Shown: one piece after another, positions 1,957 to 43,716 of the stretch | Layout of the letters: the number at the start of each line of letters is the position of its first letter | Numbering within the stretch: position 1 is the first letter of the stretch | Source: a virus | DNA: 44,523 bases | IMG/VR virus record: IMGVR_UViG_3300048079_000016 | Location: 1 to 44,523 of that record | Direction: 5' to 3' (one strand) | Made by a program: the position numbers and the translations under genes | Notes under the pieces: generated by a model | What the model saw: only the letters and a program-made list of their open reading frames with translations | What the model was told of the DNA's origin: nothing | Databases searched by the model: none

Positions 1957-4557
1957 TTAGGCGAGGACATGGTGCGAAGGGGCAAGCCATTCAGTGATGT
2001 CGTTCACCGCCCCGGTGTCGTCTATGGTAGGCGAGGCGGAAGCGAACGGCGTCGCGGGCCACACCTGATCGGGATAGAGACCGTAGCGCCTCTCCCTTGC
2101 ACGGAAGTTGGACCACCGGGCGAGCGGTCCAGTTACGTCGATGTAGTCTCCTGCATCCGCGCCGCCTCCACTGATCGGGACGGTGATCGTAAGACCATCG
2201 CCTGACAGGGTGACGTTCCCATTGATCGTCTTGGCCCCTCCGACATCGGTGTAAACCAAGCCGTAGGTGTTGAAGCCTCCGGTGGTCAGGACGGCGTGAA
2301 CGGTGGGGATCATCGTGGCAACAATATCGACCGGAGCGTTGAGGGTCAGGACGATGTTGGCACCGGAGCGCACTGCGGTGTTGACCTGAACCGGATCGTT
2401 GTCACCAGCGAACAGAGCCTGCCCGATGATGTCTCCCATGTGTTCCCCTAGCTTGCGCTGGGCAAGGGCCGTCCAGTGGATGAAGCGTCCTTGGTGGGCG
2501 TAGACCGAGCAGAGCGTGCGGAAGCGGAACTTGCCATCTCGGTTGAGGCCGATGCGGCGCTGCTCATCGTCACGCCAGAAGACGGCAGCGGTGTTCGACC
2601 CGTTACCGAAGCCATCGAACGAGTAGCTCGCGCACTTGGTGATGAAGAGCGGCGACGGGGTGCATACATCGACAAGGTTGACGAGCTTGTCGCTGAACCA
2701 TGCCCGCATGGCGGCTTCCCGAGTGGCCGAGATGCCTGCCAAGCCTACGTCAGTCTCCGCCTGAAGGTCGGAAACGCAGATGAGGCGGAGCTTCTGCCCC
2801 CGCTGTCTTGCCCAAATGTTGGCCTGCCGGACCATCGCGTTGAGGGCGTCGAAGGGGTAGAGTATCTCGTTGATAGGGGCGTTGGTTAGGCTGTGCAGGT
2901 AGGTGCCTGCGGAAGCCTGTAGATTGGCGTGGCTGTACCCGCCAAGGGTGCATCCGAGGATCAGCAGGTGGTTGCGTCCCCCCCACTTCTTATACTGCCG
3001 CCAGATACCCGCTTCGATTGTCTCGGACCCCGACCCGCTCTGGTTCGGTCCTCCCCCCGCACCGTAGATACGGGTTGAGATAGCGAAGGGGCGGATAGCC
3101 TTTGGGTCGTTGAGGATCGAGTTGGCGTAGAGGCCGGGAGTGTTGGTCTGGGTGGGATTTATCCGCTTCCCGTCATAGGCTCCGATACCATCCCCACCGT
3201 CTCTTGCGGTGGTCTCCCCGTTCCAGTTGATTTCGTCTGGGCGGTTTAGGTCTCCGGTGGTCCCTCCGGGTGCGGCAGCGGTGCGAGACTGGTCACGGTG
3301 GACGATGAGGTCCACGGTGTCAGGCCACTCGACGCGAGGGGTGCCGTAGTGGTCAGCGAGGGCGTCAGTTACGGCGTTCTGCTTGAGGCAGCTATTGGCC
3401 TTCGTGACGACGAGCGCCTTGATCGTGATGGCTCCGGCTCCGAAATAGGCGCGGTCAGGAGCAAACGTCGCCGCAGAAACTTCTGCCGACAGCTCGATCC
3501 CGTTCCAGAACATCGAGAGCATCCCGTTGCAGGCGCTGACGCGGATGTGCTGGGGCTTACCGGGGCGGTAGGCGATGGCGTCGATCTTACGGATTGCAGC
3601 GGAGGCCTGCCCGGTGACTGGGTTGTAAACGAAGCCGGAAAGGCGACCCAGCGTATCCCCAGAGACTTCACAACGATTGTCGCCGGGGGTCGCGTTGACC
3701 GTTAGGCGAGCCATGCTGTTCGGGTTGTATTTAACGAAGTCGTTGTAAGGCGTTGGCCGTTTGATGTGGTAGCTGCGATTGAGATAGGAAGGATCGTCAA
3801 TTATCATCCCAAGCACGGTGTCACTTAGCGGCTGTCCGTAACCTTCGGTGTTGTTGAAGATGGCCGCGTCCGAACTGACATAGACCACATCGTTTACAGC
3901 GTGGGAGCCTACCGCTGCGTTCATCGCGGCCACAGTCGCATAGGTGGCGACGATGGTAGGCTGGATGAACACAAGGTCGATGGTGAAGTTGAGGAGGTCA
4001 GGTAGGAGAGCGCCGATTGCCGACGAGAGGCCGTTGCCCCCTACGAAGATACCGTTGGCGGTATCAATAGCTGGGTCGGCATTGCCGAACACCGGAGCGC
4101 CCGCGCTGAACACAGGACCCACGGCGGGGGTGATGGTGTCGATATTGGGGGCAGCACCGCGATAGGTGCGGGCGTCTTCGGAAGTCAGCATGATTGCGAC
4201 TTCATCTTCACCGCCTGCGGCACCTTGGATTTTCGCCTTCAGGAGAGACATCCCGGCAGAAGGACCAACAGGACCCTGTGCGCCGGTAGTTCCCTGCGGC
4301 CCGGTGAGGCCGAGAGGGCCAGTGGCTCCGGTTGCTCCGGTTACGCCGATAGGACCTTGAGGACCTGCGGCACCCTGCGGACCCTGCGTGCCTGTGGCTC
4401 CGTTGGGGCCGGTGGGGCCTGCGATACCTTGCGAGCCTTGCGGGCCTGCGGGGCCGGAAGGACCTATGGGGCCTGCGGGGCCTACGATCTCAAGGACTAG
4501 AGGGTCTGAACTGGAAACGGCGTGGAATGAAGTGGGGTAAGTGGGGGTGTCAGTCAT
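1957..4557 (-). CDS. Collagen-like tailspike with SGNH-hydrolase-like domain
   Basis: An 866-aa receptor-binding candidate. Residues about 25-100 are Gly-X-Y repeats of collagen type ([16 protein letters not shown] and onward), expected to form a trimeric stalk. Residues about 120-400 look like a beta-rich lectin-type region. Residues about 413-715 resemble an SGNH/GDSL esterase: an N-terminal block [15 protein letters not shown] in the position of the family GQSN box, a central [16 protein letters not shown] block, and a late [17 protein letters not shown] whose His could be the catalytic one. A beta-rich tail of about 130 residues closes it. It may deacetylate surface polysaccharide. Catalytic assignment is by eye and tentative; the tail role is well supported by repeats and position. 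Confidence 0.75.
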
Positions 4558-12357: not shown

Positions 12358-15219
12358 TTAGTTCTTGCGGGGTCGTCCGCGAGGTCGGGCCGCAGTTGCG
12401 GCGTCAAGCTCTTCTTTGGTTCCGTGGGTCTTCGCGTCCGCTATTTCATAGAGATAACGGCGAGCCTTAGCGATCTCATCGTTGGGAACCTTAGCCGCGA
12501 TCAAGTCGGGGATGATGGTGTCTTCGATGTAGTCCGTGGCTTCCTTGCGGAACTTGAAGCCGTCCCTGATCTTCTCGGGGACGCGGGCAAGCACGCTCAT
12601 GGTGTCAGGACCCAAGGTGATGTCGTTTCGCATCGCTTCTGCGGCGCTGTTCGCCATCGCCTGATTAGCTTGCTTACCCTGCTCATACTGGATCGGACGA
12701 TCCACTTGGCGGAGGGTGCGTAGTTCGGTGTTGATCTCCGCGACCCTAGCAGCCTCTTCCGGCTTGACCTGATCGGGGTAGATTTCACTGGCACGGCCTG
12801 TGGAGCCGTCAGCCAGTTCGATAATAACCGGGTCTAGTTTCTCAAGCTCTGTGAGCAGTGCAGCTTCCTTGGCGGACGCAGCAGCTACGGGCTTACCTAC
12901 GGGTGGGGCTTCCATCTTCTGCGCAAGGCTGGCCTGTGCGGCTTCGTCAACGGGGACGGCCTTGGGAGCTTCACGGACAGGAGCCTTGAGACCCAGTTCG
13001 TCACGAGCCTTCGCCAAGCGGCCACCGAGGACGGAGCCGATGTTCTTGCTCTTGGTCGGATAGCCCATCTTGATACGGGCTACTTCGGCCTGAAGCTCGG
13101 GCGGGAGGTCGCCTGAAATGTGATCCAGCGTCTTGAGCATGTCAGGGACGGAGAGACCGAGGCGGGTGGCGAACGAGTTCTGGACGCCACTATCGCCCTT
13201 GATGCCCTTGGCTACGGCATCGTCGATTGAGGCTTGGCCTGCATCGACTGCCTTGGCCTTGGGAGCCGGGGCGGTCCGAGGGGTTGCGAGCTGCTCGTCA
13301 AACGAGGACAGTCCGTTCTCCATCTTGGCGACCGCAGAGTTGCGGGTCTTAACGCGGGTAGCGAGCGCACGGTCGTTGGGAACCAAGTCAGTCATGTCGC
13401 GCATGTCGGGAGCCGGATCGGTGATCTCGGCGCGAACTGCGGCACGTTCCTTGGCGGTCGGAGCATTGACCTTCGGAGCGGTGTTGAGGGCCGCGTCGAA
13501 GTCGTCGAGCTTCTTGGTGCCGCCGTCTGTCATCTTGGCTGCGGCCTTGGCGAGAGAGGCGCGGGTGTTCACAGCGGCCTTGCCGGTGATGTCCTCATAC
13601 TGCTCGCCGATGACTGCCTGCGCACGCTTCTTGGACGCGGCCTGATCGGAGCGGGTGATACCCATCTCCTTGGAAGCGGCTTCGGCATCCTTCTTGGCTG
13701 CGAGCTGCTCCACCTTGGTCCAGAGAGCCTGCTTGGCTTCGTTGGCACCTGAAGGCCCAACCATGTCTCCTAGCTTCTGGTAGCCGCGCTGCTTTGCGAG
13801 CAGCTTGTCGGCTGCGTTCACTCGGGCTGCTTCACCGTCACCGGCTGCTCGTCCGACCATCCGCATACTGCGTCCGACGATGCCGGGGATGCCGGGGATT
13901 ACGTCCGCCACGTTGGATGCCTTGTGGAGCCATCCGGTGCTGCGTTGCAGCTCTGGGGTGAGCGCACGGAGACGCTGGACCTTGCGGATCGCGTGACCCA
14001 CGGCCTCGCCTTCGACGGTCTTAGGCAGAGCCATGAGTTCGTCGTCGGTGAGTGAGTGCTTGCGGGTGATGGCTTCCTTGAGGCGGAGCTTCTCGGCCTC
14101 TGGGATGTCCATACCGTTGATGATGTTCTTGAACTCGGCGGTGTAGCCAATCTCGACGCTGTTGATGGTCTTAGCTGTCAGTGAGGCGCGGCCCTTGGGG
14201 TCGTTCTTGGTGACGGCAGTGCCTTCGGCAGCGGCCTTCAGGTCGGCGACGACTTCAGCGTCATACTGGGCGAACTCGTTGCGCTCGGACTCGCGGTTGG
14301 CGAAGCGAGCGGCCTTGTTCTTAGGTAGGGCGCGGAGGGCGGTGCCGAGGACGGCTTCGCCTGCTACGCCACCTAGAGCGCCAACGCCTGCCATCTTAGC
14401 GGCACCATCCAACCGATCGGTCACACCCCCTTCGTCGCTGTTGAAGCCATAGATGCCACCGTAGGCGGCTCCGGTTCCAGCGGCCTTGGTGAAGCGGACC
14501 TTGTTGGAGACCTGTGCGGCTTTCTCGCCTGCGGTGAGAGCCTTGACGACACCCTTGCCTCCGGTGAAGACTTTACCTGCTGCTCCAAAGGGGACGAAGG
14601 CCGAAGCCAGTCCGCCACCTATGTATGAAGGAAGATGCTCTTCCTGTGCGGAGGACATTTCGCCACGGAAGTCCTTGACGTTGGCGTCGTATGCCTCGCC
14701 GAAGCTGCTTCCGTCCCAGATGGATTTCTTACCACCCGGAAGGACCGTTAGGAGGCCCGCTCCGATTTCATCCGCGGCTCCGAAGGATAGACTGTCGGTG
14801 AAGCCTATCAGGCCCGCCTTAAGTGCTGAAGTCTTGTTCGGGAGCGGCGCATTTTCAGCGTCGAGAGCTTCTTTGGCAGGGAAGCCTTGGCGTAGCCCGT
14901 CTTGGTAAATCCGCTCCTGTTCGGCGAGATATTCCGGGGTGATCTGGGGCGTACCACCCGGCGCGGGTCCTTGGATGCCCGCGGCGTCGAAGCCAGCCTG
15001 ATTAGGGTCGGTGATGACCGATGCCCCGGCGTCTGTAGGCTGCGGAGGGACTGCGGTGGGGGCGGGAGCTTGGGCAGCGGGCGCAGGGGCAGAGTTATTC
15101 TGCTTGCTTACGCTGCCCACGATCTCGCGGATGGTGCGGTCCTGTTCGTCGGGGGCCATGTCGAGGAAACTGTCATCGACTTCGACCTTCCCGACGCCTT
15201 TGATCTCAACGGTTGCCAT
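12358..15219 (-). CDS. Large internal virion / DNA-ejection protein candidate
   Basis: A 953-aa protein with a Pro/Ala-rich N-terminal linker (residues about 40-90) and several small-residue hydrophobic stretches typical of ejection proteins (ALKAGLIGFTDSLSFGAADE; GAAYGGIYGFN; MAGVGALGGVAGEAVLGTAL). A long Ala/Lys/Glu helical C-terminal half follows (KDAEAASKEMGITRSDQAAS). I see no lysozyme or transglycosylase motif. With the next two Gly-rich genes it forms a three-gene set like T7 gp14-16 or P22 gp7/20/16, whose products leave the capsid and line the DNA path. The role is inferred from size, composition and place. Confidence 0.68.
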   Translation of the reverse strand: MATVEIKGVGKVEVDDSFLDMAPDEQDRTIREIVGSVSKQNNSAPAPAAQAPAPTAVPPQPTDAGASVITDPNQAGFDAAGIQGPAPGGTPQITPEYLAEQERIYQDGLRQGFPAKEALDAENAPLPNKTSALKAGLIGFTDSLSFGAADEIGAGLLTVLPGGKKSIWDGSSFGEAYDANVKDFRGEMSSAQEEHLPSYIGGGLASAFVPFGAAGKVFTGGKGVVKALTAGEKAAQVSNKVRFTKAAGTGAAYGGIYGFNSDEGGVTDRLDGAAKMAGVGALGGVAGEAVLGTALRALPKNKAARFANRESERNEFAQYDAEVVADLKAAAEGTAVTKNDPKGRASLTAKTINSVEIGYTAEFKNIINGMDIPEAEKLRLKEAITRKHSLTDDELMALPKTVEGEAVGHAIRKVQRLRALTPELQRSTGWLHKASNVADVIPGIPGIVGRSMRMVGRAAGDGEAARVNAADKLLAKQRGYQKLGDMVGPSGANEAKQALWTKVEQLAAKKDAEAASKEMGITRSDQAASKKRAQAVIGEQYEDITGKAAVNTRASLAKAAAKMTDGGTKKLDDFDAALNTAPKVNAPTAKERAAVRAEITDPAPDMRDMTDLVPNDRALATRVKTRNSAVAKMENGLSSFDEQLATPRTAPAPKAKAVDAGQASIDDAVAKGIKGDSGVQNSFATRLGLSVPDMLKTLDHISGDLPPELQAEVARIKMGYPTKSKNIGSVLGGRLAKARDELGLKAPVREAPKAVPVDEAAQASLAQKMEAPPVGKPVAAASAKEAALLTELEKLDPVIIELADGSTGRASEIYPDQVKPEEAARVAEINTELRTLRQVDRPIQYEQGKQANQAMANSAAEAMRNDITLGPDTMSVLARVPEKIRDGFKFRKEATDYIEDTIIPDLIAAKVPNDEIAKARRYLYEIADAKTHGTKEELDAATAARPRGRPRKN

Positions 15220-17530: not shown

Positions 17531-17848
17531 CTAAATCTTGTAGAGTTCGATTGTCCCCTCGACTGCCGTGTAGGTTCCAGCGAGGCTGAAGCCGAACAGG
17601 TGCAAGAACTTTTCGTGCTTGCGGTCGCCGGGGGTGTGAAGAGCGTATATGGTGTCTGTGTGAAGGTGTAGAAGAGCCTGCCAGTTTTGGTCTAGGGACT
17701 TCTGGACTGTCTTGGACCATCTACCAGTGATGTCGCAGTGAACGAAGGTCATCCCGCTCGTTCGCTCAAGGCTCACCGTGTAGTCCTTGCGGACAATGAC
17801 GGGGACTTTGCGCTCGGGGATGGCCTTGTCAGGGATCGATAGGGTCAT
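17531..17848 (-). CDS. Hypothetical small protein, weak GNAT-like ending
   Basis: A 105-aa protein whose ATG at 17848 overlaps the stop of the collagen-like fibre gene by one base. The C-terminal half (LHTPGDRKHEKFLHLFGFSL, then EGTIELYKI) recalls the last strand-helix unit of phage-encoded GNAT acetyltransferases, but the protein is too short for a complete GNAT fold and no acetyl-CoA loop is visible. It lies inside the structural operon, so a minor virion or host-modifying role is equally possible. Confidence 0.6.
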   Translation of the reverse strand: MTLSIPDKAIPERKVPVIVRKDYTVSLERTSGMTFVHCDITGRWSKTVQKSLDQNWQALLHLHTDTIYALHTPGDRKHEKFLHLFGFSLAGTYTAVEGTIELYKI

Positions 17849-19344
17849 CAGACGATCTTATTCGCTCGCATATAGCTGCCAGTTTGCGGGGTGATGGTGC
17901 CTGCGCTCTCGGTGGCTCGAAGCTGGATGGTCGTCGCGGCGTTGGTCCTCACCCGCACCCGGAACCGGAAGGAATGGCGAACCGCAGTCGTCAGCGAGCC
18001 GCTGGCCGCGTGGGCAAGCGTGGTCGAGGCTTCCTGCACTGCGTGGCCGAACAACTGTGTTCCGTTGACGAGTGCGGTGGTGAAGCCGGTGATCGGCCCT
18101 GCGTCCCATGTGCTTTGTGCTACCGTTGGCGCGGAACCGAACGTCCATGTCCAGACAACCGTGCCGTTAGTGGTCTTGAGGAAATAGGCGTGGCATTCAA
18201 TCTCGTAGATGCTCGACGCCTCAAGAGAGATAGTTGAGGTGAAATAGTCGGCAATGGTAGCGCCGATTGCGCCAGATAGGCCAGTGACGGGGGACAGGGC
18301 CGCATCGACCTTTATCTTGTCAGCGGCACTCATTGACCCGGCAGCACTGGTGGTAGCTGCCGATATAGCTAAAGTACGGTCGGCAGACATGTCTCCGCCT
18401 CCGGTCAAGGGAGCCGTAGTGGCCACAGACCGAGTGAGGTTAACCTTGAGGTCCAGCGCGGCCTGCTGTGCGGTAGATACCGGCTTGGCGGTGTCGGCGG
18501 TGTTGTCCACGCTGCCGAGGCCCACATCAGCCTTGACCAAGGTAAGTCCGGTCTTGAAGGCCGCGACTGATTGTGTGCCGGTAAGCCCGGTAACACTGGT
18601 CTGCGCGATGTTGGTGACGTTGCCGAGACCGACCATGGTGGCCGTGATGCCTCCTACCGTCCCGGTAAAGGTTGGGCTGGCGATGTCGGCCTTGAGGTCG
18701 AGCGCGGTCTGCTGCGCGGTCGAGACGGGCTTCGCCGTGTCGGCGGTATTGTCTACCGATCCGAGGCCCACATCAGCCTTGACGAGCGCTAGGGCCGTCT
18801 TGGTAGCTGCGGTGTCTGCGGAGATGGCGGAGTTGACGTTCGCGTTGGTCACGGAGGCGTCAGAGCCGTTGGACCCTGCGGGTCCGGTTGGTCCTGTCGG
18901 GCCTGTAGCGCCTGTCGCCCCCGCTGCGCCATCAGCGCCGGGGAGGCCGGTAGAGCCTGTGGGACCCGTAGGGCCTGTTGGGCCGTCTGGGCCTGTGGCT
19001 CCGGTTGCGCCAGCGGTTCCAGCGGGACCTGTAGGCCCCGGAACGACGCTATCTGCGCCCGCTGGGCCGGTAGCTCCGGTAGAACCGGTAGGACCTGTGG
19101 GTCCGGTCGGACCCGGAACAATGCTGTCCGCGCCCGCTGCACCTGTGGGGCCTGCGGGGCCGGTGGGACCAGTAGCTCCTGTAGGCCCGGTAGCCCCTGT
19201 GGGGCCAGTGGGACCTGCGGGGCCTCCGGTGAAGTTGGTCAGCGCTTCTTCTACCTTGAGAAACTCGCGGTCGATATGTTCGCCAAGGCCCTCCGCATTA
19301 GGGGGCCGAATGTCCCGTCGATACGGGAACGTCCTAATTGTCAT
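17848..19344 (-). CDS. Collagen-like tail fibre protein
   Basis: A 498-aa fibre. Residues about 1-38 are a conserved-looking attachment head ([15 protein letters not shown]). Residues about 40-165 are Gly-X-Y collagen repeats interrupted by [10 protein letters not shown] spacers. Residues 180-310 contain two repeats of a fibre unit also common in other phages ([20 protein letters not shown], then [12 protein letters not shown]). The C-terminal 150 residues are a beta-rich head, possibly receptor-binding. It lies next to the other tail genes. It is the second collagen-like protein of this phage, with the 866-aa tailspike. Confidence 0.82.
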
Positions 19345-21889: not shown

Positions 21890-21898
21890 TGGGGTTCA

Positions 21899-22199
21899 CT
21901 TAAGTTGACTGAAGGAGGGGCTGAAGGGTGAGACCCAAAGTGGGAGACCCTCGCTTGAGGGACTTAAGGCTTAAGGGACTTAAGTGAGCTTCAGGGGTGA
22001 TTGAGGTATATCCTCTTCATCACTGAAAGGGGACTTAAGGGGCTTAAGGGCGTGACGTTCGGTGCAGCGTTGAGCAGCGATGTCAGGTGTTCTTCTTAAA
22101 TCAGGGTTATATCCCCTAAAGTGACCGGAATGGCGGAATACCGTGAGTTTAGGGGTGTTTTGGACTAGGTGGCGTATCTCAGTCACTAACGTGCTTAAG
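21899..22199. repeat. Cluster of seven CTTAAG palindromes
   Basis: CTTAAG begins at 21899, 21963, 21970, 21979, 22034, 22043 and 22194, often within a larger GGGACTTAAGG or GGGCTTAAGG context. I noticed only about three other copies in the window. The cluster overlies the upstream region of the late operon and the promoter-like element at 22100. It could be an operator array or part of an origin; nothing in the sequence decides. Confidence 0.7.
22100..22113 (-). promoter_or_regulatory. Promoter-like element upstream of the late operon
   Basis: Minus-strand GATATAACCCTGAT is shared exactly with the element before the gp2.5 gene (40249-40275); the copy before the RNA polymerase gene (43717-43743) differs at its first base (AATATAACCCTGAT). 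It lies 211 bases upstream of the first late gene. It may be the phage RNA polymerase promoter or a host-type promoter with TATAAC as -10. Confidence 0.5.
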
Positions 22200-22699
22200 G
22201 TCCAATATATGCGACATAAGCCCACACACTAGCCTCCCCGTCAGTCCCTATGGGGCGTAACGCTCGGTGCAGGATGCCTCTGGTGCGGTGCGTTCCCTCG
22301 CCTACCCTGCGCAACTTTATGTCGTGAGGACGACACAATCAGATAGGCAGAGTGATGACCGGGGGAACCCAGCGGCTATGCGATATGGGACCCAAGGCTT
22401 TCCGATTGTTGCGCAAGAACGATGGTTTTGGTTCCCACGGCTATCCGCCACTCTGAAGCGACGGACAACAACTACAGCCGACCGCGTTTAGCGGTTATTT
22501 TGAAGTCGCCTGTGGAAGCGTCGGGGTATCCTTAGACGGGGGTGCAAAGGGGACCCATAATCCATCAAATCCCCCGCCAATCCGTCCCCCTCTCTAGGAA
22601 ACTGGCGGTCTAGCGTGCCTCGCAGCGGATGTGTGATCCCCTGCGGGCTGGGGGACATAAGGCGAGGGCGTCTCATGCCTGCCTCCCTCTCTATCATAA

Positions 22700-22811
22700 G
22701 GGGACATTGCGCCTCGTCCTGCCTTCTCGCCTGTATAGTTGGGGTTCGGAATGGGGCTTTTGTGTTTTGGACACAAAGGGGAAGGCGAAGGGGCGAGGGG
22801 ACATTGCGCCT
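22700..22811. repeat. 15-base direct repeat pair in the plus-operon leader
   Basis: GGGGACATTGCGCCT occurs at 22700-22714 and 22797-22811, 97 bases apart and both in plus orientation, flanking the TTTGTGT hairpin. The function is unknown; it could be a regulator-binding site or an RNA motif. Confidence 0.65.
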
Positions 22812-22856
22812 TGGGTATCGGCTCGCCTCGTTCGTCGCCGATTGGTCGGCTGTCCT

Positions 22857-22871
22857 CGATCTGGCACAATC
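22857..22871 (+). promoter_or_regulatory. Tandem CAATC-type motif, copy A
   Basis: CGATC and CAATC are spaced 10 bases apart start to start (CGATCTGGCACAATC). It resembles copies at 25493, 41057, 40271 and 43739. It lies about 77 bases upstream of the first small plus-strand ORF and overlaps the possible -10 (CACAAT). Confidence 0.4.
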
Positions 22872-22947
22872 CGCGCTTGCGGTCTTTCCGCTTTGGGCGC
22901 ATGGGAGGATGGCAGGCGGCGTGCCTGTCGTTTCTAGGGGTTCTGCC

Positions 22948-23031
22948 ATGTGGGATTTGTTCTGCTTCTACTGCGTCTTCCCCTCGGGGCTGGTCGCATC
23001 GTTCGCCTACCTCGCTGTCATCACTCGCTAA
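22948..23031 (+). CDS. Small hydrophobic peptide at the head of the plus operon
   Basis: A 27-aa ORF, MWDLFCFYCVFPSGLVASFA then YLAVITR, with TAGGGG 8 bases before its ATG and 12 bases between its stop and the next start. It is a single hydrophobic segment with two Cys. The good ribosome binding site and spacing support it; it could also act as a leader peptide for the operon. Confidence 0.45.
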   Translation: MWDLFCFYCVFPSGLVASFAYLAVITR

Positions 23032-23043
23032 GGGATCATCATC

Positions 23044-23268
23044 ATGTGCCTAACCTGCTCTGCTACTCTCGCCGCTGTCGCCTTCGCTCCTGTGGGCGCT
23101 GCGACTGTCGCCTACGCTAAGAGCGTGTTCCTCGCGCCTCTGCATCGTCGGGCCGTCCGCGACTATCGCGCGGGTCGTTTCCCTGCCGGTCTGCCGGTCC
23201 CCTCGTGGGCGCAACCTGACGCAACGCCTATCCTCCGCGCCTCTGAACAATCGTCCGCAATCGCGTAA
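23044..23268 (+). CDS. Hypothetical 74-aa protein with hydrophobic N-terminus
   Basis: The ATG at 23044 is preceded by AAGGGA. The N-terminal 30 residues (CLTCSATLAAVAFAPVGAAT) are hydrophobic with a CxxC and look like a signal-anchor or membrane helix. The rest is basic and Pro/Ala-rich (APLHRRAVRDYRAGRFPAGL). The gene shares the T-ending codons (gct, cct, tct) of the following plus-strand genes. The family is not recognised. It is the second gene of the divergent operon. Confidence 0.65.
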   Translation: MCLTCSATLAAVAFAPVGAATVAYAKSVFLAPLHRRAVRDYRAGRFPAGLPVPSWAQPDATPILRASEQSSAIA

Positions 23269-23295
23269 TATCTACGCTCTCGAAAGGTCCTCAAT

Positions 23296-25485
23296 ATGTC
23301 TTACATCATCGCAATCTCGCTGCTCGGTCGCTCGCCCCTCGCCCCTCTGGTTTACTGCTCTGACGGTGCTTCGGACGCTAACGGTCGCTACGCGTTCCAC
23401 ACGCTCTTTGCGGCTATCCAAGCTGCGGATGATGCCGCGCGGCACTTCCCCGATACCTGCTACGCGGTGTTCTCGGGCTTCGCCTCCAATGAGGCTGACC
23501 GCTTGCCGGACGCTGATCTAGGGCGGGCTATCCATGTCCCCTCGCTGTCGATGGCGATGGCGCTTGATCTGGGCTGGGCTGCTCGCGGCGATGATGCTGC
23601 CTCGTTCCCCTCTACCTCTGCAATCCGCCTGCAAGGCTTCGCGCAAGCCTATGGCGCTGGGCCTGTCTCGCTTGACCGGATGGCTTCGCGTCTCGCGCCT
23701 TCGTTCAATCCCTTCCTAGACGTTATCTCTTCGCGTGCGGCTGCTGCGTTCGCGGATGAATATGTCCCCTCGCCTGTCGTGCCTCTCGCGGTCGCTGCGG
23801 CTGCTGTCGAGCCTGTCGCGCCTGCGCCTGCTGCCGGTGTCGATCTCTCGCCAGTGTTTGAAGTGCGTTCCGGCGTGCTGGGGACAAACCGCGATGATTG
23901 GTCGGCGGTTATGGAGTTCGATAACGGCAAGGCTGCGGGCGCTTGGGTCGGGCAGAATAAGGCTGGCTATGCGGCTAACGGTAAGTCGCTGGTTATCGTC
24001 AAGGTGGAGCGTTCGGCGGCGGTCGTTGACTGGCGGGAACGGGAAGCCGCGCGTCTCGCCTCTGGGGAATACGTGGCGCTGCCTGACGGTTGGCAGGAAG
24101 AGATTTCCTCCGCCTATCCTGACCATTTCCCGCACATCGCTAAGAGCGACAAGCGCAAGGTTGCGTTCACTGAAACCGCAAGCGCGGGGGAGCGCGACAA
24201 GCAAAAGGTCTTGGGCGCTGCGGCCTATGCGGAGCGCTTCTTCAACGGGGCTGGTCTCGCGCCTCTCTGGTATGGATCGCGTCGGGATGCGTTCGTGGGC
24301 GCGATGATGGGCAATGACATAAACGTCCTGCTCTCGCCTCTCGGGGACGTTGACGCGATGATCCGTTGCTATCGTGACACTGAAGATGGCCCGGCTCATG
24401 GCTGTATGTCCTACGCTGCCAATCACTTCTCAACGGACGGTCGCCATCCTGTCGAGGTCTATGCGCTGGGCGGGGACATCCAATTCGCGATGGTCCGTAG
24501 CGACGAACCTAAAGCCGAAACGCTGCTTGGCAGTCGGTCGGCGCAAGATACGTTTGATCGCTACGGGGGAGAGGATGGGCCTTCCTGCCGCGATAGCTGC
24601 TGCCGGTCTGACGTTGCGTTGTGGGAAGCCGCTAAGGCTGCTCTCGCTCGCGAAGCTGCGGGGGACGCTGGGGACGCTGGGGACGTTGCAAGCGATGCGC
24701 CTGCCTTCCTGCCTGCGTGGGATAGCCACGATTATCCGGTGCTGGCTCGCTGCCTCGTCTGGGCTGATCGCAAGCAATACGGGCGCGTCTATGGCGATGC
24801 TGTCGCGGCGCGGATGCTTCGCACTGGGCTGGAAGCTCTGGGCTATTCGTCTGGGTCGCTGTCGGGTGCCAAGCTCGGCAAGGTGGAAGTGCGCGGGTCG
24901 TATCTCATGCCTTACCTAGACATCGGCGGTGGCAACTTCGGCGACTATTGCGACGATTTCTTTCGGGTCGGTGGCGACTATGACGGCAATTCGACTAACG
25001 GGCTGGCGGACGCTGAATGCAACTCTGTCGAGTGCGACCATTGCGGCGATGATGTTGACGGGGACGATACGCGGTCGGTCGCTACGGGTCATTATGACAG
25101 CGAAAGCTGGTGCGAGTGCTGCGTGGAGAATAGCGCCTTCTACTGCGAGGAAACGCATCAATACGTCACTGACAATCGGCTGGCGGAATACATCAACACT
25201 CGCGGCCATACGGTTTTGGTTGCTGACTGGGCGATTGAGCGCGGGGACGTTGACGTTACGCTCTGCCGCGATGGTGAGTATCGGGAAGACGCTGCAACCT
25301 GCGACGATTGCGGCGATGGCTTCCCCCGCGATGATCTAGGCGCGTTCGATGCTGACGGCTCGGGCGATTGCCTCTGCTCTGACTGTGGCGATACGCGGCA
25401 AGCTGACGTTGACGCTGAAGCTGCTCTCCTGTCGCCTGAATTGCCTCTCTCTGACGGCGGCGAAGCTCTCGCCATCGCTGCCTAA
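23296..25485 (+). CDS. Large protein of unknown function with Cys-rich C-terminus
   Basis: A 729-aa protein, ATG 23296 with GAAAGG upstream. Four parts can be seen. Residues 1-150 are an alpha/beta-looking domain (SYIIAISLLGRSPLAPLVYC; HTLFAAIQAADDAARHFPDT). Residues about 160-190 are an Ala/Pro/Val linker. Residues about 340-560 form a domain with HPVEVYALGGDIQFAMVRSD and LARCLVWADRKQYGRVYGDA, then RGSYLMPYLDIGGGN, a pattern I associate loosely with uncharacterised phage proteins. Residues 575-700 hold Cys clusters (CDHC, CECC, CDDC, CLCSDC) suggesting two or more zinc ribbons. No catalytic motif is recognised. An early host-takeover role is inferred only from operon position. Confidence 0.85.
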   Translation: MSYIIAISLLGRSPLAPLVYCSDGASDANGRYAFHTLFAAIQAADDAARHFPDTCYAVFSGFASNEADRLPDADLGRAIHVPSLSMAMALDLGWAARGDDAASFPSTSAIRLQGFAQAYGAGPVSLDRMASRLAPSFNPFLDVISSRAAAAFADEYVPSPVVPLAVAAAAVEPVAPAPAAGVDLSPVFEVRSGVLGTNRDDWSAVMEFDNGKAAGAWVGQNKAGYAANGKSLVIVKVERSAAVVDWREREAARLASGEYVALPDGWQEEISSAYPDHFPHIAKSDKRKVAFTETASAGERDKQKVLGAAAYAERFFNGAGLAPLWYGSRRDAFVGAMMGNDINVLLSPLGDVDAMIRCYRDTEDGPAHGCMSYAANHFSTDGRHPVEVYALGGDIQFAMVRSDEPKAETLLGSRSAQDTFDRYGGEDGPSCRDSCCRSDVALWEAAKAALAREAAGDAGDAGDVASDAPAFLPAWDSHDYPVLARCLVWADRKQYGRVYGDAVAARMLRTGLEALGYSSGSLSGAKLGKVEVRGSYLMPYLDIGGGNFGDYCDDFFRVGGDYDGNSTNGLADAECNSVECDHCGDDVDGDDTRSVATGHYDSESWCECCVENSAFYCEETHQYVTDNRLAEYINTRGHTVLVADWAIERGDVDVTLCRDGEYREDAATCDDCGDGFPRDDLGAFDADGSGDCLCSDCGDTRQADVDAEAALLSPELPLSDGGEALAIAA

Positions 25486-28487: not shown

Positions 28488-28857
28488 TGAAAGCCTCGTC
28501 CATCTGCTGTGCCAGCTCGGCGTTAGCGAGAGCCTTCTGGTAGCCAGCGACCGTCCCCTTGCGGGCATGGAGCTTGGCGTAGGCGTCGAAGGTATCCATG
28601 GCCGTCGCCAGCGCCACGAGGACGGTGACAGGGACGCGGATCGTGGGCGTCAGGGGTGTAGGCTCAGAGAGCGGCCCTCCGACTAACTTAAACCACTCTA
28701 CGCAGTGGGCACATTTGCCGTCTTCAGTGCGCGTGAGGGGCTTGCCGCACGTATGGCACCAAGGGTCCTTGCGAGGCTCCGGTGGTATGTAGGGGAATAT
28801 GCTCTTAGGGTCAGACGCCGCAGCTTCCGCCTTTGCCGGTGATGTCACAGATGTCAT
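28474..28857 (-). CDS. Zn-ribbon-containing hypothetical protein
   Basis: A 127-aa protein with a short zinc-ribbon signature (PWCHTCGKPLTRTEDGKCAH then CVEW: CxxC and CxxC 12 residues apart) near residues 33-55, followed by a helical C-terminal half (LVALATAMDTFDAYAKLHAR). The ATG at 28857 with GGAAG upstream is preferred to the TTG at 28875. It overlaps the end of the reductase gene by 47 bases. The function is unknown; it may be a nucleic-acid-binding or reductase-associated factor. Confidence 0.68.
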   Translation of the reverse strand: MTSVTSPAKAEAAASDPKSIFPYIPPEPRKDPWCHTCGKPLTRTEDGKCAHCVEWFKLVGGPLSEPTPLTPTIRVPVTVLVALATAMDTFDAYAKLHARKGTVAGYQKALANAELAQQMDEAFNACA

Positions 28858-30487
28858 GGTATGTTGCTTCCGCAAATTCCTGCCCCAGATTGGCCCGGGC
28901 AGTCTTGTAGTTGGTGGGGGTCAGCGGCTGTCCGCCTCTCGCCCCATCAGGGTAACAGGTGAAGCCACGGAGGCGGGGGGCATACTTGGCGAGCGTGAGG
29001 CCAAAGGCGTCCACGGTGTCAGGGTTGTTGTGCTTCGATCCCCACTGCGGGAGATTGATCGTGGAGCTGATCGCCATGTCCACGAAGTCCTGCACATCCG
29101 CTTGGAACGCGATGCGGCGCTCGTAGTCTTCAGCCAGATCGACGGCGCTCTCGATCTTGTCGGGGTCAGCTCCGTATTGGTCGATCAGCTCCTGTGCGGT
29201 GCCATCGACGACATACTGGAAGCGCCAGTCGCTGTTGCCCTTGAGATAGCGACGCTTGTAGGCGACGGCGAAGAGAGGCTCGATGCCAGTCGTCGTGCCT
29301 GCAAGGATGCCAATCGTGCCGGTCGGCGCAATAGCGCGATTAGCCACAGGACGGCTAACGCAAAGGTGATCCGCAAAGGACCGCGAGGTAGTATCGGAGA
29401 TGATCTTATAAGCTGCGAGCCAGTTGCGAAGCTCGGGAGTGACTTCATAGCGTGATCCCTTCTTGATGAGCCATTCATGGGCCCCCATGAGGCCAAGACC
29501 TAAGCGACGGTTCTTCTCTCGGACCTTGCCTACCTTATCATAAGGAAGCTTTGCTCGTAGGGTGCCGCATATGAGGAACTGGGTAGCGAGTGCGGTGACG
29601 GACATGAACTCTTCGAGAGTGTCGATGCGGCCCATGTTAAGGCTACCGAGATTGCAGACGTCGCTATCGTCAGCCGAAGTGACTTCGGTGCAGGCGTTGC
29701 GGAGGGTTTCATTGGAGTTGGCTCCGAAGTTGAAGGAGAACCCCGGCTCGGCAGTCTTCAGCGCCTGTGCGATGTTCTTGCGGAACGTGGGGTGAGCTGC
29801 TCGACCTTCGACGCCAAGGGCGAGCCAGTTGTCATCGTAGTTGAGCGAGATGTTGGTCATGTCGAGCGGCGCAGGGAAGTTGAAGTCCTGCGTCTTCACA
29901 TCAGCGAGGGTGAGGCCGCTGGTGCCTACGGGCATGGTGTCCCAGTCCTTCGCAGCGAGGAACTTTTCGGCGTCATCATGCTGCCAGTTGAGGCTTGCGT
30001 AGATGGCCGAACGGCGAGACCCGCCCTGCATGACGCGGCGACCGATCTCGTTAATCATCATCATCTTCGGGAGCGGGCCTGAAGCCTGCCCTCCGGTGCG
30101 CTTGATCGGAGCGCCTTCAGGGCGATAGATCGAGTAGTCGGCACCGATGCCACCACCTGTCATCAGGCAGCTCTCGGACTTCCACGACAGGTTTGCCCAG
30201 TCTTCTCGGCTGTCTTCCTCTGCCTTGAGCAGATAGCAGTTGTTGAAGAAGGCGTTGTCGCGGCCAGCATAGTAAAGGTAACGGCCACCGGGGATGAACT
30301 TCATGTCGATCATATACTGTCGAAGCTGAAGCATATCGTCCTTGGGCATTAGGCCGCTGCAAACGTGGTGGACTAGAGTGTCACACAGTTGTTCCCACGT
30401 TTCAGCGCCTTCATGGCGATACTTGTGGTTGAAGATGTCCTCGCTAAACTTGGAGCGGAACATCGGGTTGGTGTTAGATTTGAACAT
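28811..30487 (-). CDS. nrdJ: Class II (adenosylcobalamin-dependent) ribonucleotide reductase
   Basis: Converts ribonucleotides to deoxyribonucleotides for phage DNA synthesis. It is about 558 aa, similar in size to phage monomeric class II enzymes. Visible motifs: NNCYLLKAEEDS (first redox Cys), CLMTGGGIGADYSIYRP, RRSAIYASLNWQHDDAEKFL, the active-site NACTEV (NxCxE), VCNLGSLNMGRI, RPVANRAIAPTGTIGILAGT and a C-terminal CDITGKGGSCGV tail that could carry the exchange thiols. No small subunit gene is present. The start is uncertain: the longest frame begins at a GTG inside a terminator stem, so ATG 30487 is chosen although no clear ribosome site precedes it; ATG 30463 is the alternative. Confidence 0.9.
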   Translation of the reverse strand: MFKSNTNPMFRSKFSEDIFNHKYRHEGAETWEQLCDTLVHHVCSGLMPKDDMLQLRQYMIDMKFIPGGRYLYYAGRDNAFFNNCYLLKAEEDSREDWANLSWKSESCLMTGGGIGADYSIYRPEGAPIKRTGGQASGPLPKMMMINEIGRRVMQGGSRRSAIYASLNWQHDDAEKFLAAKDWDTMPVGTSGLTLADVKTQDFNFPAPLDMTNISLNYDDNWLALGVEGRAAHPTFRKNIAQALKTAEPGFSFNFGANSNETLRNACTEVTSADDSDVCNLGSLNMGRIDTLEEFMSVTALATQFLICGTLRAKLPYDKVGKVREKNRRLGLGLMGAHEWLIKKGSRYEVTPELRNWLAAYKIISDTTSRSFADHLCVSRPVANRAIAPTGTIGILAGTTTGIEPLFAVAYKRRYLKGNSDWRFQYVVDGTAQELIDQYGADPDKIESAVDLAEDYERRIAFQADVQDFVDMAISSTINLPQWGSKHNNPDTVDAFGLTLAKYAPRLRGFTCYPDGARGGQPLTPTNYKTARANLGQEFAEATYHDICDITGKGGSCGV

Positions 30488-30497
30488 GCGATACTTG

Positions 30498-30532
30498 AAA
30501 AAAACCCCCACGCCGTAGTAGCGGCGCAGGGG
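30498..30532 (-). terminator. Rho-independent terminator directly upstream of the reductase gene
   Basis: The minus strand has CCCCTGCGCCG and CGGCGTGGGGG fully paired (two G-U), a 6-base loop and seven T. It ends 11 bases before the reductase ATG, so it separates the kinase gene from the reductase within one gene string and may be a regulated attenuator. Confidence 0.8.
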
Positions 30533-41071: not shown

Positions 41072-43697
41072 AGGCGAAGGCGTAGTCGGCGTCGAGGACC
41101 ACGTTCAGGTCCATGTCGCCCTTCGTGGGCAGTGCGGGGAGCTTCTCGATCCCGTCATCCGAGAGGACCGAAAGCGCGTAGTCGAGGGTCTCTTGGAACG
41201 GGCAGTAGTCGGCATACATCTCGACGAAGCTCTCACGGATAATCTGGAAGAAGCGTTGCGTCTTGCCAGCGTGAGCGCCGAAGCTGTCGTGGATGAGGGC
41301 GAAGTCCATCATGCCCTCGTTGTAGGCGTTCAGGACCGTAAGCATCAGGTGCGAGCCGTCCATCGAGTGAATGACGTTGGGCGCGACAGCCGACCGGGCC
41401 TTCTCTTTGTCGATGCGGTCGAGGGGCTTGGTGCGCAGATTGAGCTGGACCCTGCGCAGAACGCTGACCCCATCGTCTCCGATCTTGTCGTGCAGCTTGG
41501 CTTCCGTCACCGGGAGCTTCCGGTCGTAAAGGCAAAGCTCCACAACCTTCGTCTCCCAGACACTGTAGCGGTGCATGACAGGGAGGCCGAGGGGCGTGGA
41601 CCACACGAGAGGGTGACGCTCGTGAGCCAACGTGGCCGCGAGACGCTTGAAGAAGTCCATGCCTTCGGTCGCCTTGGTCACAGTGCGGGTCACTGCGGCC
41701 CACACCTTCGCAGCGAGATAGCCAGAGGCCGCGAAGCCGCCGTCCATCTCCCCAGTCAGCTCCCCGGTGTCCTTGTCCTTGCGGGCAGTGGCGTAGGGGT
41801 TGACCGTGGCTTGGCCGGTGAAGACATCATCGTTCAGAGGACGCATCAGGTCCTCCATCTGCTGCTGCCTGAAGCCGAACTGCTCGCTTGAGTAGGCGAA
41901 GGTCATCACGTTGCGCTTGACGATCCCACGGTCCACGCCAGCGGCGAGAACGAGGATAGCCATCTCGTTGCCGTCAGCGGCTTCCAGCTCCATCTCCGCA
42001 ATCACTTCGTCGCAGACAGTCTGGTAGAGATCGCTGGGGGTGTCGCTCGGGGTGAGAGACACGAGGGCAGCTTCGTCAGCCGCACGGAGCGCAGCCGAGT
42101 AGTGCTGAAGGCCAGAGTTCGACCCATCCAGCGCAACGGCGAGATGGGAGACGTAGCTGTCCTTGCGGCCACCCTTGACCCACGCTGCGTAGTCGATGCA
42201 GGCGGCGACGAACATGAAGGGGCTGTCTGCCTTCTTCCACTCGGCAACGGTCCCCTTGGGGTCCTTGGCGATGCGGAGGATCATCAGCTCGTTGTTCGAT
42301 ACCCAGTCGAGGCGAGCGTCGAAGGACTTCTTGCTCACCTTGTCGAAGTCGCCACAGTTGGCGAGATGCACCGACAGCCACCCTGCCCCGAACTCACCAA
42401 GCGGCTCGCCGTCCGAGAACTGGAAGAGCGCCTTGATATGGTCCGCCCGCTGGTGGCTGAAGTGGGGAACTGGATAGACCCGTCCCCGGAAGTCCAGCGA
42501 GTGCGGGAGCCAGAAGCGCTGGTAGCCTGTCAGCTCGTTGGCGGTCTCGATGTCACGCAGGAGAACTGCCTGATCGGAGACGACGCCACGGTTGCGCTCG
42601 TGGATGCCAGCGAGGGCCATGCGGGTGGCCTTGCGCTGCTTGGTGTCCATGGCCTCCCACTCCGCCTTGTCGAGCTTGGCGGGAAGCTGCATCAGGCTAT
42701 TGGCAGGCAGGCCGAGGCCAACGATGCCATTGTCGAAGCCCCACTGGACGAGATCGAGGATGGGCTGGTTGATGCTCCATGCCGTGCCTTGGATGGCGTT
42801 CACCGACTGAAGCACGTAGTCCATCTGACCGTCAGCGATGGCGGTGCGGATGAGAACCTTGTGGTCCTTGTTGAAGGTGCGGACGAGCTTCACGCTGCGA
42901 GCGGCGCGAGGCTCATAGTAGCAGCCGGTGTCCATGTCGGTCCAAGGACGCGGGGGGACAACCATCGGGCGGTGAATGGGAGCCATCCACGCCATGCTCT
43001 CCCGCAGCGCTCCGAACATCTGGACCCCTTCGTCCGTGAGGCGGACGGTGGTGATCCGGTTGTTCTTGCCGCGAGAGATCGTCACCAGCTCGAACAGCTC
43101 CGAGAGGGCCACGAGGACAGCGTTGGTGAGAGGCTCGGCGATGCGAACCTTCACGTCCTGCGGCCAGTCAATGTGATCAGGGAGCTGCTCGGTGGTGAGC
43201 TTGTTGAAGACCTTCTTGCGGTTCCGGCTGCTGCCCTGCTTGTTGGCGACAGCGAGGATGCGAGCGGCGACCTTGCGGCCCTGAAGCTCTTCGACGTTGA
43301 GGGCGATGACTTCCGCCTCCACCTGTCCACCGATATGGGTTTGGACGTTGGCGATGGAATGCTCTTTGGTGATCCCGGCGAAGACACTGTTGAGCGTCAG
43401 GAACGCAAGCAGGTCAGGATCGAAGCGCTTCAGGTGCGCGAGGGCAGCGTGGCGCTTGCCGGGACCGGGGCGGGTGTTGCTCTCGACCCACTTGGTAATC
43501 TGTGCGGAGACGAGAGGGATGCAGCCGCGAATGATCTTCACGGCTTCGGCAGTCGAGTGACCACCGATGTTGTCCGAGGAAGACTGCTGCTGCTTGATGT
43601 AGCGGTCGAACCCATCCTTCGAGGCGCGAAGCTCAAGGTCGCGTTGGGCGGCAATGAGATCGTCCGAGGACTGGGGCAGGGTTTGTGTTTGCATCAT
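41070..43697 (-). CDS. Single-subunit DNA-dependent RNA polymerase, T7 gp1-like
   Basis: An 875-aa phage RNA polymerase that should transcribe middle and late genes. Motif A VALDGSNSGLQHYSAALR (Asp near 524), motif B VDRGIVKRNVMTFAYSSEQF (Lys near 594 and Tyr eight residues on), NVIHSMDGSHLMLTVLNAYN and motif C FALIHDSFGAHAG (Asp near 802) are all present. Length equals T7 gp1 (883). The ATG at 43697 with AGGAG 6 bases upstream is preferred to the TTG at 43703; a second ATG follows at 43694. The promoter-like element lies 20 bases upstream. Confidence 0.96.
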   Translation of the reverse strand: MMQTQTLPQSSDDLIAAQRDLELRASKDGFDRYIKQQQSSSDNIGGHSTAEAVKIIRGCIPLVSAQITKWVESNTRPGPGKRHAALAHLKRFDPDLLAFLTLNSVFAGITKEHSIANVQTHIGGQVEAEVIALNVEELQGRKVAARILAVANKQGSSRNRKKVFNKLTTEQLPDHIDWPQDVKVRIAEPLTNAVLVALSELFELVTISRGKNNRITTVRLTDEGVQMFGALRESMAWMAPIHRPMVVPPRPWTDMDTGCYYEPRAARSVKLVRTFNKDHKVLIRTAIADGQMDYVLQSVNAIQGTAWSINQPILDLVQWGFDNGIVGLGLPANSLMQLPAKLDKAEWEAMDTKQRKATRMALAGIHERNRGVVSDQAVLLRDIETANELTGYQRFWLPHSLDFRGRVYPVPHFSHQRADHIKALFQFSDGEPLGEFGAGWLSVHLANCGDFDKVSKKSFDARLDWVSNNELMILRIAKDPKGTVAEWKKADSPFMFVAACIDYAAWVKGGRKDSYVSHLAVALDGSNSGLQHYSAALRAADEAALVSLTPSDTPSDLYQTVCDEVIAEMELEAADGNEMAILVLAAGVDRGIVKRNVMTFAYSSEQFGFRQQQMEDLMRPLNDDVFTGQATVNPYATARKDKDTGELTGEMDGGFAASGYLAAKVWAAVTRTVTKATEGMDFFKRLAATLAHERHPLVWSTPLGLPVMHRYSVWETKVVELCLYDRKLPVTEAKLHDKIGDDGVSVLRRVQLNLRTKPLDRIDKEKARSAVAPNVIHSMDGSHLMLTVLNAYNEGMMDFALIHDSFGAHAGKTQRFFQIIRESFVEMYADYCPFQETLDYALSVLSDDGIEKLPALPTKGDMDLNVVLDADYAFA

Positions 43698-43716
43698 GGG
43701 CAACTCCTAGCCGTGT

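Follow-up and report, generated by a model that had tools for sequence, protein, structure and literature searches.

A phage protein with a GNAT-like core and predicted zinc ribbons, encoded beside an M28-like peptidase

Described relatives and genome setting

Hundreds of sequenced phage genomes, most of them from Klebsiella phages, encode proteins related to gp10 of Klebsiella phage KP34, which carry no annotation other than "hypothetical". In KP34, Buco, Maculvirus and Phimunavirus the gene precedes the primase gene within the early region and is paired with a peptidase gene; the early-region placement of the pair in KP34-like phages and Phimunavirus is documented (PMC6115819). In Klebsiella phage fHe-Kpn01 (GenBank MN380459), the family member gp12, the peptidase gp13 and gp14 were verified in phage particles by LC-MS/MS. 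A total of 29 of the 56 proteins of this phage were detected in particles and some are said to be carried over for early infection (PMC7291057); in a particle proteome with 29 of 56 proteins, contamination is possible. A GNAT of phiKMV-like phages, Rac, is described as triggering cleavage of the alpha subunit of host RNA polymerase (PMC7552054; PMC7824862), a precedent in this virus group for a phage GNAT tied to the proteolysis of a host protein.

The locus considered here is part of a phage record of 44,523 nucleotides (IMGVR_UViG_3300048079_000016), the whole of which is hereafter called the window. Its single-subunit RNA polymerase (41073-43703) is closest to those of Autographiviridae, with 32.7% identity to that of Bordetella phage BB8, and the other genes include a T7-type primase-helicase, a family A DNA polymerase, a 5'-3' exonuclease, a lysin, and tail and ejection proteins. 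Nearly all genes are on the minus strand; a plus-strand island of two genes, one for a 729-residue protein and one for a peptidase, separates the structural block from the replication block (Table 1). The larger gene is present exactly as the original prediction had it, although it is not, as was also claimed, the largest unassigned gene of the window: an open reading frame for 953 residues (12358-15219) is larger, and its sole match is to phrog_5880, of unknown function.

Several other features of the window deserve mention. About 1.4 kb without a confident gene (21890-23290) separates the divergent structural block from the gene pair. A ribonucleotide reductase gene with a GTG start (28811-30511) has three stretches with large-subunit family matches, besides a weak match to the class II insertion domain, and is possibly divergent or interrupted. 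Two proteins with collagen-like repeats are encoded at 1957-4557 and 17848-19344, one of them with a tail fibre family match.

Table 1. Features of the two-gene island and of the 729-residue protein (positions in the window)
Feature	Coordinates	Strand	Remarks
729-residue family protein	23296..25485	+	ATG start; variable N-terminal region, GNAT-like core, predicted C-terminal zinc ribbons
Residues 1-180	23296..23835	+	Variable; pLDDT <50 for the most part; homologues have N-termini of different length and sequence
Residues 187-237, small beta-beta-alpha-beta unit (model)	23854..24006	+	pLDDT about 76-95; like segment in the relative L010
Residues 241-578, conserved core	24016..25029	+	Low-confidence insertion at about 402-478, absent from compact homologues
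Residues 369-371, family "SCM" motif	24400..24408	+	GCM in the window; Cys and Met invariant (56 of 56 rows)
Residues 497-502, RVYGDA	24784..24801	+	R-x-Y-G-D at predicted beta4-alpha3 turn; GNATs there have R/Q-x-x-G-x-G/A
Residues 539-542, PYLD	24910..24921	+	Pro and Asp invariant
Predicted zinc ribbon 1, C580-C583 / C606-C609	25033..25122	+	Kept in most homologues
Predicted zinc ribbon 2, C669-C672 / C694-C697	25300..25386	+	Kept in fewer family members
Partner gene, M28-like di-zinc peptidase, 434 residues	25512..26816	+	26 nt downstream of the 729-residue gene

A divergent member of a viral protein family

The gene is preceded by a plausible Shine-Dalgarno candidate (GAAAGG, 23282-23287, eight bases before the ATG), and scans for promoters and terminators were uninformative. 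The gene is real by homology, given a family of 56 members, 41% identity to the close relative L010 and a confident core structure. The protein is acidic, with 78 aspartates and 37 glutamates against 45 arginines and 14 lysines.

No match to the 729-residue protein was obtained from Pfam, NCBIfam, PADLOC or the PDB, and direct searches with it of phages, viral contigs and bacterial genomes gave nothing because the protein is too divergent. Relatives were found by domain-level and alignment-based searches where these direct whole-protein searches failed. The profile phrog_6980 matches residues 478-618 (hmmscan, E 6.1e-8), and BLASTP aligns the protein with the KP34-gp10-like protein of Klebsiella phage vB_KpnP_B1 at 33% identity over 144 residues (E 7e-13). 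Viral contigs, scanned with alignments, yielded L010 as well as 70 family loci, and conservation was assessed from 56 non-redundant members; the family HMM, which was built with the window protein included, scores that protein at E 5e-141. By these alignments, the protein belongs, as a divergent representative, to a large and uncharacterised family that is restricted to viruses. Outside viruses, a search with one degenerate pattern, which was not exhaustive, found five relatives in about 85,000 genomes of bacteria and archaea, and the family thus appears essentially viral. At L063, L067, L073 and L114 the family gene occurs as two or three paralogous copies per locus.

Two other identities were considered for the protein and rejected. 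A known anti-phage defence protein was one, as no PADLOC family matched at E 0.1. The other was a GIY-YIG endonuclease, as noted for gp9 of Shigella phage Buco, which is the same family gene; Pfam gave no GIY-YIG match for Buco gp9 at E up to 10, GIY-YIG is also absent among the families listed for the 56 members, and the annotation of Buco gp9 looks mistaken.

What defines the family is a core, found across the 56 members, that in compact form is about 245 residues long. In this alignment Y359, C370, M371, Y389, R485, G516, P539, D542 and C580 are invariant, and the landmarks of the core are Y359, the SCM motif at 369-371, Y389, R485, R-x-Y-G-D at 497-501 and P539-x-x-D542. The two motifs that had been singled out in the domain preceding the cysteine-rich region, LARCLVWADRKQYGRVYGDA (residues 483-502) and YLMPYLDIGGGN (residues 536-547), are present and both fall inside this most conserved part of the family. 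That no catalytic residues could be recognised was also stated, and this requires some qualification: invariant polar residues exist (Y359, C370, Y389, R485 and D542), although a catalytic role for them is putative. A Cys-His-Asp protease triad was dropped as a candidate, as the histidine beside the SCM motif is not conserved (H384, 71%).

The cysteine motifs behind the core were borne out in full: CDHC (580-583), CECC (606-609), CDDC (669-672) and CSDC (694-697, within CLCSDC) are all present. Shuffles of the same protein give 0.63 CxxC sites on average against the four observed, and at least four are reached in 16 of 5000. The spacings, CX2C-X22-CX2C for the first unit and CX2C-X21-CX2C for the second, are as in two ribbons, and both pairs (580/583 with 606/609, and 669/672 with 694/697) have the arrangement of CxxC knuckles about 20-25 residues apart that is taken to define a putative zinc ribbon; LIM-domain and Zn_ribbon_2 matches are weak and mark the Cys pattern only. 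Conservation of the cysteines in homologues, on which the original prediction had been made to depend, is partial. The first CxxC/CxxC pair is kept in most homologues (C580 in 56 of 56, C583 in 73%, C606 in 79%, C609 in 75%, and C617 in 88%), but about 18 of 57 members have no CxxC motif after the core, and the number per member ranges from 0 to 9. Because of this variation the predicted ribbons are considered accessory and not the conserved essence of the family, even though the first is retained in most members. The N-terminal regions also differ between clades.

The description of a multidomain protein with C-terminal zinc ribbons agrees with the full-length AlphaFold model, in which separate ordered regions are confidently predicted at about 180-300, 370-410 and 480-640 and residues 1-180 are disordered. 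Comparison of the full-length model with the PDB gave no significant match. The compact core of the homologue L047 (L047:3638-4369) was also modelled by AlphaFold (pLDDT 93.8, pTM 0.82); its best PDB match has E 0.013 and a TM-score of about 0.24 by query, and none reaches E 0.001. The 50 matches listed for this core are nevertheless essentially all proteins that we take, from their descriptions and established fold knowledge, to have the GNAT fold, plus one protein of unknown function (3frm); they include LPG synthase/MprF, ArsN, GCN5, AAC(6'), FemX, ATE1 and malonyl-CoA decarboxylase. The modelled order of elements in the L047 core (strands 142-148, 151-159 and 164-170, helix 172-181) fits beta2-beta3-beta4-alpha3 of GNATs. 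R-x-Y-G-D would then lie at the beta4-alpha3 turn, with its arginine in 43 and its glycine in 44 of 52 sequences. Within the family, the final G/A position of the acyl-CoA loop motif varies (the window protein has an alanine there), and CoA binding is doubtful because this position is not conserved. No Pfam GNAT match was found in the 729-residue protein or among the families listed for members, and hhalign comparison of the family with 28 GNAT and 9 FemAB-like proteins was no better than with unrelated control families. Because sequence profiles fail to confirm the assignment, the core is called GNAT-like and not filed as GNAT; the resemblance of the predicted structures is a pattern, not proof.

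Pairing with an M28-like peptidase gene

The downstream gene of the island encodes a protein that matches Pfam PF04389 (M28; E 5.8e-6, 26.6 bits against a curated cut-off of 21.3) and phrog_4191 "peptidase" (E 3.5e-62), and is 35% identical to a Klebsiella phage peptidase (E 2e-35). It carries HVDT, GADD, GEEVG and FDRRD, and the His of GEH is likewise present. The metal-ligand motifs (HxD, GAD, EExG) are thus found in the partner, and peptidase motifs occur in about 95% of its relatives. With M28-family peptidases it has in common these motifs and a Pfam score above the cut-off, but it belongs to a phage clade (phrog_4191) with its own C-terminal extension.

A peptidase profile search placed a same-strand peptidase gene immediately after the family gene in 99 of 105 family loci (52 of 55 when non-redundant); all five loci in bacterial genomes have the peptidase as well. 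Family gene and M28-like peptidase gene therefore make up a conserved two-gene module, of which the 729-residue gene is one half; this conclusion is well supported. Among the exceptions, L071 and L094 stop at a contig edge, L070 has the peptidase about 0.9 kb further on, and at L047, L083/L084 and L090 it is absent within the sequence covered. The pairing is seen in Drulisvirus (L002, L009), Bucovirus (L005), Maculvirus (L006), Phimunavirus (L007, L008) and Kotilavirus (L038), as well as in Rhizobium phage Pasto (L033), the 121-kb Bradyrhizobium phage BDU-MI-1 (L032) and marine contigs; E. coli phage Minorna also carries the pair, and in Klebsiella phage B1 there is a one-base overlap between its two genes. 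The phages with the pair range in size from about 38 kb to over 120 kb, and the genes around it otherwise differ between them. When a second recurrent neighbour was sought across lineages, just lineage-specific genes (rIIA, integrase, primase) and no wider operon were found. Distances in the core tree and the peptidase tree are correlated (r 0.54 for 45 pairs; permutation maximum 0.16), which, at the level of the trees, shows co-inheritance and not contact; the two genes may be co-expressed and nothing more. This peptidase coupling of the phrog_6980-type family is newly found here, and no mention of it was met with in the papers that were searched.

Some loci lie outside or extend this arrangement. 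At L034, L035 and L036, in megaphage records (five places each) and Thermus phage P23-45, an M28-like peptidase is present without the family gene, and in the Thermus phage it is near genes for an ATP-dependent protease and a VWA protein. The genes upstream of stand-alone peptidases in the megaphages, Bacillus phage 2S-4 and Thermus phage P23-45 include no recognisable family member. In BDU-MI-1-type phages (L032:1727-6339 and similar loci), the order is family gene, peptidase, rIIA-like gene.

Possible functions and comparison with known systems

Given such a partner, what might the family protein do? We tentatively favour a host-modification module acting on proteins or peptides, made up of the protein with its divergent GNAT-like core and zinc-ribbon tail and the M28-like peptidase. 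Most likely the core would act at an amine of a protein or peptide, binding or transferring an acyl or aminoacyl group there, while the variable N-terminus and the zinc ribbons would select the target, and the peptidase would trim or degrade that target or remove the added residue. The pair, perhaps as a physical complex, may serve host takeover early in infection in the window phage as well, possibly after delivery by the virion. A bolder form of this proposal, which we consider unlikely, is a phage-specific protein-modification module in which a divergent single-GNAT transferase, possibly aminoacyl-tRNA dependent and with the conserved SCM cysteine, would act with its dedicated peptidase on a modification of host proteins that the two install and process, or mark and trim; interchangeable N-termini and ribbons would set the target, and the module would be common to Autographiviridae and unrelated larger phages.

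The near-obligate peptidase partner would also suit a non-enzymatic adaptor, in which a degenerate GNAT-like fold and the ribbons recognise host (or phage) proteins and present them to the peptidase. The incomplete acyl-CoA loop motif favours such a role, and ribbons numbering 0 to 9 and N-termini that differ by clade are as expected of target-binding parts. The five invariant polar residues nevertheless resemble an active site, and strict invariance across sequences this divergent would be needless in an adaptor; the reading is somewhat improbable. The original prediction of a regulator or enzyme acting on nucleic acids is, by comparison, very unlikely. Zinc ribbons are common among nucleic-acid-binding proteins, and two CX2C-X21-22-CX2C units are present here, but the claim found no support: there were no matches to nucleic-acid-binding families in Pfam, NCBIfam, PADLOC or the PDB, the sole stable genomic partner is a peptidase, many members have no ribbons, and the protein is acidic.

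The occurrence of fHe-Kpn01 gp12 and gp13 in particles could also point to a virion component or ejected protein with a structural role, the peptidase being a maturation enzyme. This is the least probable reading of all, since the genes of KP34, Buco and Phimunavirus are early-region genes outside the structural cluster, those of the window lie on the strand opposite to its structural genes, and the particle study detected more than half of the phage proteins. A phage amide-ligation system with amidoligases, ATP-grasp and GNAT-like ligases, in which a protein or metabolite would receive an amide or peptide modification with the family's help, to be processed by the peptidase, is quite doubtful. 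GS-like, ATP-grasp and acetyltransferase-like ligases in combination are reportedly, going by the title as cited in PMC7824862, the subject of work by Iyer et al. in 2009. At L090 the compact family gene is followed not by a peptidase gene but by one that matches Amidoligase_2 (E 7e-4; 20.0 bits, the cut-off being 22), and a phage protein named amidoligase is among the BFVD matches of the full-length model (E 1.6e-3). However, L090 stands alone among about 60 loci, the BFVD match extends over 109 columns only, perhaps just the zinc-ribbon part, and no ligase gene recurs near the pair at other loci. In this part of L090 (L090:2020-5693), the Amidoligase_2-like protein is a 688-residue open reading frame with a sub-threshold match; between it and the family gene, a second amidoligase-like reading frame (2020-2868) and an ATP-grasp-like stretch can be seen by eye, neither with a family match.

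The peptidase pairing, the near-confinement to viruses and the GNAT-like core turn a nameless hypothetical gene into a testable hypothesis of host takeover with a defined partner and residues to mutate, and this proposal can be set against systems already described. LPG synthase C domain/MprF, FemX and ATE1, which are tRNA-dependent aminoacyl transferases, are among the top structural matches of the core, but with E values of 0.013-0.3, TM-scores of about 0.2 and no sequence support. These enzymes have two GNAT units each, whereas the core has at most one. The proposal resembles what is described for Rac, in that a GNAT-type protein of Autographiviridae phages is linked to the proteolysis of a host protein (PMC7552054). 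Rac itself can be recognised as a GNAT and has an acetyl-CoA pocket, and no phage peptidase partner is mentioned for it in the descriptions consulted; the GNAT resemblance of the present family is structural only, and a peptidase gene adjoins the family gene. Closest of all is the phrog_6980 / KP34 gp10 family of Drulisvirus and relatives. Identity to it is about 33% over 144 residues only, the N-terminal halves have no detectable similarity, and the window protein differs in having a second ribbon and a core insertion, but the core, the first zinc ribbon and the downstream peptidase are common to both.
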